NCBI RefSeq assembly: GCF_000258765.1
Contig: NZ_AJLT01000006.1
Span: forward strand, 1 to 64,000
DNA length: 64,000 bases
Source: Gillisia marina
Lineage (GTDB): Bacteria > Bacteroidota > Bacteroidia > Flavobacteriales > Flavobacteriaceae
Direction of reading: 5' to 3'
In this document: positions 3,995 through 8,988 of the stretch, one piece after another
Layout: every line of letters begins with the position of its first letter
How positions within the stretch are numbered: position 1 is the first letter of the stretch
Made by a program: the position numbers and the translations under genes
The notes under the pieces: model-generated
Database searches by the model: none
What the model was told of the DNA's origin: nothing
The model's input: the letters and a program-made list of their open reading frames with translations, nothing else

Positions 3995-6220
<2,226 letters not shown>

Positions 6221-6404
6221 TTATTTCTTCTCAATCTGCATTTAGAAAAATTAAATCTCCAAAGGCTTATCGATTGGTTATTAAATTTTAAAATTGAATT
6301 ATTTGGATGTGAAATCCAACGTGTCGCGAAGATAGGGTTTTTAGCTATTTTATCATAGAGGCTAAACTCGTAATCCCAGGGTTTTATATAAATTTTAGCA
6401 TTAA

Positions 6405-6545
6405 AAAAGCCATTTCAACATACCTTGTATATTGAAATGGCTCCTGACGAAGTAACGCTTTACCGCTGGATCATCTAAGATCGTTCATAAGTCAATTACC
6501 ACACTTACTTCGTGCGTTACTCCACATGATACAATTTACTCACAA
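6405..6545 (-). ncRNA. Candidate structured small RNA with terminator
   Basis: A perfect 11-base-pair hairpin (6408-6418 with 6432-6442) followed on the minus strand by a T6 run is a textbook terminator, yet no open frame lies upstream of it before the separate terminator of the protease gene at 6843-6876. Upstream of the hairpin, plus-strand segments 6447-6458 (ACGAAGTAACGC) and 6505-6521 (TTACTTCGT then GCGTTACT) pair with each other in two overlapping, mutually exclusive ways (8 and 9 perfect pairs). This suggests a non-coding RNA. Flavobacterial 6S-like (6S-Flavo) or flavo-1 RNAs are possible identities but I cannot confirm either. The remaining parts of 6212-6891 show nothing else recognisable. 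Confidence 0.4.
6408..6442 (-). terminator. Orphan terminator of the candidate small RNA
   Basis: AGCCATTTCAA and TTGAAATGGCT arms, 13-base loop, and an A6 run at 6402-6408 on the plus strand that becomes a U tract in a minus-strand transcript. It is not adjacent to any protein gene end. Confidence 0.75.
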
Positions 6546-6842
6546 ACGCGCTTAAATTATATCAAAGATGTTCAAATCTTTCAAACTACTTTTGCTTAGC
6601 AAAATATGCGTTATATAGAAGATAAGAACCTATGTAAAGAAATTACTTTACAGTACTTCTTGAAATGGAGAAATCCTTTTGTCATTCTTCCATATTTTTT
6701 AAAAGTACTTTTAAATTTACGACAGAAACCATAAATTATCAAGTAATTTAACTAATTAGTTTTCAACAGGTTATAATCATGGGTTATTAACTTTTGTTAA
6801 TTATATTCGTGTGTTTTTTAAATTTTTTTGGAAATTTCGAGC

Positions 6843-6876
6843 AATAAAAAAGCCCCGACTAAGGGGCTTTTTATTT
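6843..6876. terminator. Terminator of the subtilase gene
   Basis: AAAAAGCCCC-GACTAA-GGGGCTTTTT inverted repeat, 16 bases past the stop codon of the minus-strand protease gene; flanking A and T runs would allow action in both directions. Confidence 0.85.
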
Positions 6877-6891
6877 TCTTTTAAATATAAA

Positions 6892-8316
6892 TTAATCTGT
6901 AACTGCTCTAAATGCATTTACTCTTCCTTTACCAAAGAAAAGGCTTTGTCCGTTTCCACCTACTTTATCTGCAGTATTTATCATTTGTTTTGCAACATCA
7001 TGAGGACTCATTTGTCCACCATTTTTAGCAATGATCAAAGCAGCTACGCCAGATGCATGTGGTGCAGCCATACTTGTTCCAGCAAAATAGTTAAATGCGT
7101 CCACACCACTAGCAACACTAAATACCATATCCAAAGCGGATACATCACCATCACCACCAGGGGCTGCAAGATCAACTAAAGATCTTCCATAAGTTGTATA
7201 ACTTGCAGGAATATCAAAATTTGTATCTGGATTAGCGAATGGATGCCATCCTTCTGGAGCAGTTGCTGAAATTGTAATAACATTATTTAAGCTTCCAGGC
7301 AATTTAGTATCAGCTCCATTACCGTCATAATTTACCCCATCGTTTCCTGCAGATGCAATTATTGTTACCCCATTATTAAAAGCATAATCAATTGCTCTCT
7401 GTTGTGCTTTAATAATCTCTTGAATAAATTTAGCCGGTATTTTAAACGGGTTACCATCAGCATCGGTTAATTTTCCATTTTTGCTTAACGTAGCACCAAG
7501 GCTCATATTAACAACATCGGCATTGTTGTTACCTGCATACACTACACCTGCGTTTATAGAGCTAAAGGCACCACTACCGGTGAACTCAGATAAAACTTTT
7601 ACAGCAACAAGTTCTGCTTCGTAAGCAACTCCTATTACACCAAAATTATTTTTATTAGCATTTATAGTTCCAGCAACGTGGGTACCATGATTAGTAAATC
7701 TTCCAGGTCTTGTGTAATAAGTTTCACCTGGTACAAATGAAGCTGAAAGATCTTTATTAAGGGTTTGAGAAAATTCAACATTATCCCTGTCTATACCCGA
7801 GTCAAGAACAAACACACTTGCTCCTTTACCAGTATAACCCGCACTCCAGGCCTCTGGAGCATCTATTGCATCCATACCCCATAGACGAATATATGAAGGT
7901 TCAGAATCACCCGCACTTGGGCTTAAAGCTTCTGCTGAAACATCCATGCTTGTAGGCTCATTTTCTGTAGATGGAATCCATTGGATTTCGTAATCTGGAA
8001 CAACAGATTGAATTTCGGATCCTTTCATTGCTTTTTGCATAAAATCTGAATCATTGGAATGAACAATTGCAATTCCAATTTCAGGAATAGTACTTAATAT
8101 ATTTCCTCCAGAGGCCTTTAGAAAATCTTCAGCACTTTTAGTTAATTCAGTACTTTTAGTAATTACCATATAATTTTTAAATACTGGCTCTTGAAGGTCA
8201 ATATTTACTACATCTGAAGAATTCTCTGTAACTTCATCTTTTTCACAAGATGTAAATACAAATGCCGTGCAGCATACCAATAAAAATGTTTTTAATAAAT
8301 GTGATGTGCTTTTCAT
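6892..8316 (-). CDS. Secreted S8 family serine protease (subtilase), lipoprotein
   Basis: A 474-residue subtilisin-like peptidase. The catalytic triad is visible: Asp172 in VLDSGID, His213 in NHGTHVAGT and Ser415 in GTSMAAPHASG; the oxyanion Asn lies in IIASAGNDG. The N-terminus carries a hydrophobic stretch ending at Cys24 (TSC followed by EKDE), so a lipoprotein is likely. Residues 45-115 look like an inhibitor I9-type propeptide, which would fold the enzyme and then be removed. It probably degrades extracellular or surface protein. It is monocistronic, with a terminator behind it and a TATATTCG element (minus strand, 8348-8355) near-matching the -7 promoter consensus in front. Confidence 0.93.
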   Translation of the reverse strand: MKSTSHLLKTFLLVCCTAFVFTSCEKDEVTENSSDVVNIDLQEPVFKNYMVITKSTELTKSAEDFLKASGGNILSTIPEIGIAIVHSNDSDFMQKAMKGSEIQSVVPDYEIQWIPSTENEPTSMDVSAEALSPSAGDSEPSYIRLWGMDAIDAPEAWSAGYTGKGASVFVLDSGIDRDNVEFSQTLNKDLSASFVPGETYYTRPGRFTNHGTHVAGTINANKNNFGVIGVAYEAELVAVKVLSEFTGSGAFSSINAGVVYAGNNNADVVNMSLGATLSKNGKLTDADGNPFKIPAKFIQEIIKAQQRAIDYAFNNGVTIIASAGNDGVNYDGNGADTKLPGSLNNVITISATAPEGWHPFANPDTNFDIPASYTTYGRSLVDLAAPGGDGDVSALDMVFSVASGVDAFNYFAGTSMAAPHASGVAALIIAKNGGQMSPHDVAKQMINTADKVGGNGQSLFFGKGRVNAFRAVTD

Positions 8317-8521: not shown

Positions 8522-8875
8522 TTATTTTCTTCTAAGTTCTTTAATACGGGCTTTTTTACCAGTAAGACCTCTAAAGTAATAAATACGAGCTCTTCTTACA
8601 GCACCACGCTTATTAACTTCGATTTTTTGTAATGCAGGCAAGTTTACCGGGAAGATACGTTCTACCCCAACAGTACCACTCATCTTTCTGATGGTAAAAG
8701 TTTTTGAAGAACCAGTTCCTTTAACTTGAATAACTACACCTCTAAAAAACTGAGTACGAGTTTTAGCACCTTCCTTAATTTCATAGTACACAGTAATAGT
8801 GTCACCTGCTGAATATTCAGGAAATTCTTTCCTTGTAACGAATTCGTCTTGAACGAATTTAATTAGGGATTCCAT
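8522..8875 (-). CDS. rplS: 50S ribosomal protein L19
   Basis: A 117-residue basic protein of the large ribosomal subunit, located at the interface with the small subunit. The motifs FRGVVIQVKGTG, FTIRKMS and GVERIFPVN, then the basic C-terminal KRGAVRRARIYYFRGLTGKKARIKE (given in part), are family hallmarks, and the length is usual. It lies 113 bases downstream of trmD on the same strand, the classical trmD-rplS order, and is followed by a terminator. Confidence 0.98.
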   Translation of the reverse strand: MESLIKFVQDEFVTRKEFPEYSAGDTITVYYEIKEGAKTRTQFFRGVVIQVKGTGSSKTFTIRKMSGTVGVERIFPVNLPALQKIEVNKRGAVRRARIYYFRGLTGKKARIKELRRK

Positions 8876-8988
8876 ATCTAATATTTTTAATATAGTCTAA
8901 ATCAACATTCACGGATCTCGCCAGAGGTTAATATAGAAACGAGTGCAAAATTAAATAATTTAAAACTATAAACAAGAGAAAACTTAAT

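Follow-up and report, generated by a model that had tools for sequence, protein, structure and literature searches.

The window analysed here, a stretch of 64,000 nucleotides of Gillisia marina DNA, very likely contains a stand-alone gene for a structured non-coding RNA (ncRNA), with a promoter of its own on the minus strand, at which transcription would begin, and an intrinsic terminator of its own, at which it would stop. The position of this gene between rplS and icd is conserved, and compensatory changes preserve its fold in each of two groups of relatives that were aligned independently. We infer from the sequence that the RNA is transcribed, and it probably acts in trans and not as a leader of icd.

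Extent and neighbourhood of the predicted gene

The predicted gene and its surroundings are arranged as follows, from upstream to downstream:

8522-8875, minus strand: open reading frame (ORF) of rplS (ribosomal protein L19), the usual upstream gene of the RNA
8316-6892, minus strand: ORF of an S8 subtilisin-like protease, between rplS and the RNA in the window
6847-6872, minus strand: terminator of the S8 protease gene, separate from the terminator of the RNA
6742-6712, minus strand: predicted promoter, consisting of TTG (6742-6740), 20 nt and TAAATTTA (6719-6712)
6403-6706, minus strand: predicted ncRNA gene of about 300 nt, with the 5' end placed from the promoter and the 3' end from the terminator
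6326-6334, minus strand: promoter-like box of icd, TATCTTCGC, downstream of the RNA terminator
3995-6211, minus strand: ORF of icd (monomeric isocitrate dehydrogenase), the downstream neighbour of the RNA

The ORF at 3995-6211 we take to be icd from sequence knowledge, and the protease, which was named by eye from its sequence, is presumably of the S8 subtilisin-like type. The rplS ORF is likewise named from sequence knowledge, and we take it to be the gene that the L19 leader precedes: an L19-Flavobacteria leader (RF03130) is found upstream of it at 8903-8930 on the minus strand, and this leader recurs in many of the related loci scanned.

How far does the RNA extend? The first-pass annotation had placed a structured ncRNA candidate at 6402-6545. 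This region is real but corresponds only to the 3' half; the object runs upstream to about 6706, and the promoter at 6742-6712 had been overlooked. In a single-orientation alignment of relatives, the block from promoter to terminator is conserved, far upstream of the part first noted. The conservation reaches the promoter-like sequence TTG-N20-TAAATTTA, and the gene is therefore taken to run from about 6706 to 6403. Model R1 aligns to the window at 6403-6696, and model R2, which was made without the window's own group, at 6401-6691.

The predicted promoter fits the flavobacterial TTG / TAnnTTTG type. A strict form of the motif is present at 16 of 16 loci in one group of relatives (group D) and at 14 of 24 loci in the window's own group (group A), while it occurs in 0.5-9.5% of shuffles per locus. 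From the promoter start to P2, a hairpin of the RNA, the distance is 62-70 nt in group D, 61-124 nt in group A and 91 nt in the window. At the other end, a minus-strand terminator had been noted earlier and is present in the folds, where 6445-6427 pairs with 6405-6423 over 19 pairs with a T run at the end, though a consensus terminator scan does not list it. It had also been described as standing alone, and this agrees with the gene arrangement: the nearest upstream gene on the minus strand, the S8 protease, has its own terminator at 6847-6872, so the terminator of the RNA is not that of the protease. Consensus and conservation both point to an own promoter and an intrinsic terminator, two of the marks by which a stand-alone ncRNA gene may be recognised.

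The genome of the window has a single copy of the RNA; the sole other matches are to the terminator palindrome, on the opposite strand. Among the first 80 of at least 118 named loci listed, Salegentibacter agarivorans (L065) is the only one with the protease in the interval from rplS to the RNA; the protease precedes the RNA in L034 as well.

Fold and compensatory changes

The folding energy of the region, compared with that of shuffles, gives a z of -5.0 for 6400-6560 and of -6.3 for 6400-6700. The consensus fold obtained with RNAalifold for group A has six main helical elements: the hairpins P1 to P4, the domain P5, which encloses two smaller hairpins, and the terminator. These elements, together with two further features that bear on the interpretation of the RNA, are listed here:

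6669-6688, minus strand: hairpin P1, within which a short ORF begins; two-sided changes in 3 of 4 pairs, 86.5% paired
6634-6651, minus strand: hairpin P2, GUAAAG/CUUUAC; 99.3% paired; of its 6 pairs, 3 are invariant and none has two-sided changes
6570-6629, minus strand: P3, a long irregular hairpin (helices 4-7); 11 of 22 pairs changed on both sides
6527-6564, minus strand: hairpin P4; two-sided changes in 9 of 11 pairs, with 82.6% of cells paired
6448-6524, minus strand: P5 domain; its closing helix (6514-6524 with 6448-6458) contains pairing 2
about 6487-6508 and 6469-6482, minus strand: hairpins P5a and P5b, within the P5 closing helix, with the same layout in group D
6403-6445, minus strand: intrinsic terminator, conserved in sequence (AGCCATTTCA...TGAAATGGCTTTTTT)
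6447-6455 with 6505-6513, minus strand: pairing 1 (alternative), in the window's sequence and not conserved
6685-6611, minus strand: short ORF of 24 codons, MTKGFLHFKKYCKVISLHRFLSSI, in the 5' part of the RNA

Covariation in group A was counted in an alignment (A6) of 24 sequences of Gillisia-type, Salegentibacter, Salinimicrobium and Christiangramia genomes. The second copies of L002, L009 and L017 (L031-L033) and L078, which holds L036, were left out, and L141-L178, which are outside A6, possibly include further copies of this group. In A6, 91.3% of 2097 cells are paired, and in slid controls 42-46%, a comparison that favours the predicted structures, as these were predicted on the same alignments on which they were counted. 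On all five measures, 0 of 500 shuffles were as high; related sequences can exceed shuffles, and the more robust part of the result is the number of two-sided changes, which affect 45 of 90 pairs and 147 cells. An alignment with a search for compensatory changes had been proposed in the first-pass annotation, and the covariation found in these relatives supports its claim of a structured ncRNA candidate on the minus strand.

P2 and the terminator stand out for their constancy. P2 is the internal element with the highest sequence conservation, and those of its pairs that are not invariant are nearly so in group A; in group D, 4 of 6 pairs are invariant, and most members have AAAG-UAACGUU-CUUU. 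The terminator stem is 97.8% paired, with 12 of 19 pairs invariant in the 24 group A sequences and 10 of 18 in group D, although invariant pairs of P2 and of the terminator are no test of structure. The constancy of the terminator is partly selected, because the terminator pattern helped to pick both sets of sequences. Terminators usually drift in sequence, yet this one is conserved, and a sequence-specific partner for the hairpin would be a reasonable guess.

Does the RNA switch between two folds? A bistable design had been proposed earlier on the basis of two overlapping pairings, both of which are exact in the window: 6447-6455 (acgaagtaa) is the reverse complement of 6505-6513 (pairing 1), and 6451-6458 (agtaacgc) is the reverse complement of 6514-6521 (pairing 2). 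When the 100 nt without the terminator (6446-6545) were shuffled 2000 times with dinucleotides kept, a single shuffle had two overlapping Watson-Crick helices of at least 8 bp, and at least 7 of the 9 pairs of pairing 1 are possible in 14 of 24 sequences, all from the window's genus. However, only 1-5 of these 9 pairs are possible in the other 10 (L016, L017, L034-L037, L065, L086, L104 and L113). Across the 24 sequences, pairing 1 has 65.3% of its cells paired versus 66.3% in shuffles, 450 of 500 of which are as high, and its mean probability in single-sequence ensembles is 0.02 or less in all 24. By contrast, the mean base-pair probability of P5 is above 0.8 in 22 of 24 (the low values are those of L007, 0.08, and L036, 0.37). 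Pairing 2 lies within this covarying helix: in A6, 97.4% of its cells are paired, 6 of 8 pairs have changed on both sides, and 25 cells show two-sided changes versus 7.5 in shuffles. For pairing 2, which has no more than 8 pairs, 0 of 500 shuffles were as high on three measures; on the remaining two, which count pairs and types, 31 and 50 of 500 were. With P5 supported and pairing 1 at the level of shuffles, a single fold is conserved and a switch is not; on these 24 sequences the switch is rejected as a conserved feature, and as an explanation of the RNA it is scarcely credible.

Another possibility is that the transcript is coding, or has a dual function: the 5' ORF (MTKGF..., MTQGFP... or MSQGIL...) would give a tiny peptide, and the remainder would be a 3' UTR. 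The start codon is kept in 22 of the 24 group A sequences (21 ATG and 1 TTG), and some of the changes, judged by eye, conserve the amino acid. However, the length of the ORF ranges from 5 to 27 codons across group A, neither of the two Christiangramia-type sequences (L035 and L104) has the start, no such ORF is seen by eye in group D, and conservation tracks the RNA fold. It is very improbable that the peptide accounts for the transcript, although a tiny peptide from the group A 5' end, which would not be general, is possible.

The structured RNA is also found in other types. A search of 299 genomes of Flavobacteriaceae with R1 (E up to 0.001) gave matches in 38, and group D was found through these matches. 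In group D, P2 is AAAGUAACGUUCUUU, the layout of P5 is the same, with a GGUAUAAUAAA-type loop, and the terminator is AAGCCAU(A/G)UCA. In a separate alignment of 16 group D sequences (A7), 91.9% of cells are paired and 37 of 75 pairs have changed on both sides, and 0 of 500 shuffles were as high on all five measures. Not included in A7 were L043 (a near-copy of L041), L087 (the same RNA as L042), L051 and L054 (whose 5' parts aligned badly), and L050, L053 and L056-L060 (which are of other types). Compensatory changes, which are expected of a stand-alone structured bacterial ncRNA, are thus found in both groups A and D.

R2, made from group D only and hence from other genera, recovers the window copy (6401-6691) at full length with 61.4 bits and an E-value of 2.1e-13, E-values being rough owing to short calibrations. 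This recovery and the common gene neighbourhood are the strongest evidence for a presumed common descent of groups A and D. The P2 motif and the terminator, together with a closing stem, recur in two further types: type B (e.g., Maribacter, Zobellia and Arenibacter) and type C (e.g., Winogradskyella, Gelidibacter and Psychroserpens), the latter of about 450 nt. Types B and C were described from folds of 9 and 14 sequences (6 of each listed), and the covariation counts cover A and D only. The RNA is therefore about 300 nt long in the window and about 300-450 nt in relatives.

Comparison with known RNA families

Does the RNA belong to a known family? The first-pass annotation had named 6S-Flavo (RF01685) and flavo-1 (RF01705) as possible identities, but a permissive Rfam scan of 6210-6900 (E up to 10) lists neither of them. 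When the window was compared with Rfam 15 (4227 families) at gathering score, there was one match, the L19-Flavobacteria leader at 8903-8930. The permissive scan gave 25 weak matches, 24 of them in 6767-6900 around the protease terminator and the remaining one at 6336-6378; none of the 25 overlaps 6402-6700. No Rfam 15 family reaches its cut-off in the window copy of the RNA or in the copies at 42 relative loci, all different, which were scanned in sets of 20 (E up to 0.5), 15 (gathering score) and 10 (E up to 0.1), with three loci shared by the latter two. Two sub-threshold matches fall on the RNA: ncr982 at the terminator of L035 (34.3 bits versus a cut-off of 50, E 0.28) and GlsR7 in L048 (23.2 bits versus a cut-off of 75, E 0.48).

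6S-Flavo is, like the RNA described here, a stand-alone structured RNA of flavobacteria; it differs in size, its model having 108 positions versus about 300 nt for the window RNA, and the true copy of this genome lies on another contig (G000:C20:37636-37755, 93.4 bits). The L19-Flavobacteria leader shares the gene neighbourhood but is a leader of 29 positions that precedes rplS.

A highly diverged copy of a known housekeeping RNA would be consistent with the size and single-copy status of the RNA, which are like those of RNase P, tmRNA or 6S RNA. However, RNase P (218 bits, contig C22), SRP RNA (54 bits, C43), tmRNA (125 bits, C23) and 6S-Flavo are all found above cut-off elsewhere in the same genome, and the Rfam scans of the window and the 42 relative loci have no family at cut-off. 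An element that acts at the level of DNA can be considered along with it; the compensatory changes point instead to RNA. The chance that either of these two accounts for the conserved region is minimal.

Large bacterial ncRNAs such as OLE, GOLLD, ROOL and raiA have been found by comparative genomics, and the RNA resembles them in being long, structured and discovered by comparison. None of the four is reported in the Rfam scans of the window or of the relative loci, and we presume that their families are in the library scanned.

Flavo-1 is an RNA motif of Bacteroidetes, listed as such in a section of PMC2864571, and its function is still unclear according to an extract of PMC9723704. No Flavo-1 is found in the window RNA or in the copies scanned in relatives. 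One sub-threshold match to Flavo-1 is found in L232 at 356-427 of the plus strand (30.9 bits versus a cut-off of 42), upstream of the rplS leader and outside the RNA. The Rfp sRNAs of Flavobacterium psychrophilum are, like the RNA proposed here, independent flavobacterial transcripts, some of them structured and conserved, and the same extract of PMC9723704 reports 85 new transcripts in that species, including the protease-related sRNA Rfp18. The Rfp sRNAs, e.g., Rfp18, were compared with the window RNA by their description, and one of them may correspond to it. No description of the RNA was found in the open-licence PMC literature; four terms relating to flavobacteria or Bacteroides are all absent from the main text of PMC8632094, and PMC5698469 mentions small RNA in its references only. 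We conclude, from comparisons of sequence, that the RNA would form an uncatalogued family of the class of large structured bacterial ncRNAs.

Distribution, relation to icd and possible role

Of 40 genomes searched with BLAST, of which 15 are from the same genus as the window's own genome and 24 are others, 16 gave matches, namely the genome itself, 14 of the 15 of its genus and, in part, G022, which belongs to another genus of the family. There was no BLAST match in G012 (same genus, 65% complete), in which icd and rplS were likewise not found. A scan of named genome contigs for the terminator pattern gave at least 118 stretches. Among the 118 matches listed, icd lies within 1.5 kb downstream in 89 and rplS within 2.5 kb upstream in 83, and one or both genes are present at these distances in 98; the 20 matches listed with neither gene include likely chance ones in Lactiplantibacillus, Paenibacillus and Roseibium.

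In an even sample of 31 Flavobacteriaceae genomes (one per genus, at least 90% completeness), 27 have icd and 23 of these have the signature terminator upstream of it, with rplS or a protease before the RNA; a GTTCTTT motif is found 240-410 nt further upstream in 18 of the 23. As a control, the signature terminator was found in 0 of 23 stretches downstream of icd at the same loci. Downstream of rplS it was found in 0 of 14 stretches, from the 8 remaining genomes of the family and 6 from other families (L265, with a second, short rplS match, is left out). The RNA is absent in all three sampled genomes in which the 1.5 kb upstream of icd are without rplS (L243, L220 and L250), and also in L249, where rplS does precede icd. 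The large genus g142 has five genomes in which rplS and then icd occur with no terminator signature; g142 is, at a guess from its many species, Flavobacterium and, if so, the best-studied genus would be without the RNA.

Is the RNA then a part of icd expression? As a cis-acting 5' leader or attenuator of icd, its terminator would be a regulated stop and the folded RNA would sense a metabolite. The RNA is on the same strand and nearly always near icd, the distance from terminator to icd being 134-294 nt in 19 of the 23 sampled genomes and 425-768 nt in 4. Moreover, its absence from three of three sampled genomes that have icd with no rplS upstream is what a cis role likewise predicts. This steady nearness and pattern of absence leave a cis role with a low probability. 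However, a TAnnTT(T/C)G box follows the terminator and precedes icd at 42 of the 47 named loci where icd is no more than 500 nt away, while 6.7 would be expected from shuffles, and in 13 of 60 named loci with icd nearby the two are 721-905 nt apart (both counts are from the first 80 of the 118 pattern matches listed). In 12 of these 13 gaps there is an ORF of 116-193 aa on the same strand. Among the matches listed, the RNA is thus not always directly upstream of icd in one transcript, given the distant loci and the separate promoter-like box. Furthermore, the terminator stem is almost fully paired across group A, and the sole alternative pairing examined, pairing 1, is not conserved. A leader or attenuator of icd is on balance unlikely, and a trans-acting RNA is favoured by the own promoter and terminator, the separate icd box and the intervening ORFs.

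The intervening ORFs (L061, L071, L080, L088, L097, L117, L118, L121, L126, L129, L133 and L136) look by eye like pentapeptide-repeat proteins and come from Winogradskyella/Gelidibacter/Psychroserpens-type genomes.

In a search of the family with R2, 111 of 299 genomes had matches, many of them weak and to the terminator only, and 32 matches reached 60 bits or more. Beyond the family, R2 matched 9 of 246 genomes in a sample of the order and 8 of 296 in a sample of the phylum, all of them Flavobacteriaceae and the window's genome included; this is weak evidence of absence elsewhere, as R2 misses many real copies, and the listings of these samples do not give the share of genomes from other families. 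Both models miss real-looking copies (e.g., L215, L216 and L226), so the model counts set a minimum and are a weak test of absence from other families. Within the Flavobacteriaceae, the RNA is widespread though not universal.

How might such a trans-acting RNA work? It would fold into P1-P5 plus the terminator, and the P2 loop and the terminator stem (the 3' hairpin), which are the best candidate contact sites, would be contact points for a protein or a partner RNA. The other helices would serve as a faster-changing scaffold, and the partner-bound RNA would act as a regulatory or scaffold RNA. In the sea, Flavobacteriaceae count among the major degraders of algal polysaccharides and, to our knowledge, few of their ncRNAs are known. 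A more far-reaching reading, which we hold tentatively and rate below an even chance, is that this is a lineage-wide core RNA of the Flavobacteriaceae, comparable in scale to RNase P, tmRNA or 6S, and the backbone of a ribonucleoprotein or a global regulator. It could have been overlooked because the best-studied genus may lack it. If true, a single-copy structured RNA in most sampled genera would be a basic missing part of Flavobacteriaceae biology, being either a global regulator or the RNA component of a new ribonucleoprotein. With the covariance models at hand and its place between rplS and icd fixed, the RNA can be tested directly in culturable strains.

Some loci may extend this picture. 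Among the 14 stretches downstream of rplS, L251 has a GGTTCTTT / TTAAGGTTCTTTGAAG motif and a different terminator-like hairpin, and it may hold a diverged copy of the RNA. The terminator signature of the RNA is also found beside rplS and/or icd in L077, L114 and L147, which are labelled Chlorobiota, Rokubacteria and Cytophagaceae, respectively, and are perhaps mislabelled or mis-binned Flavobacteriaceae contigs.
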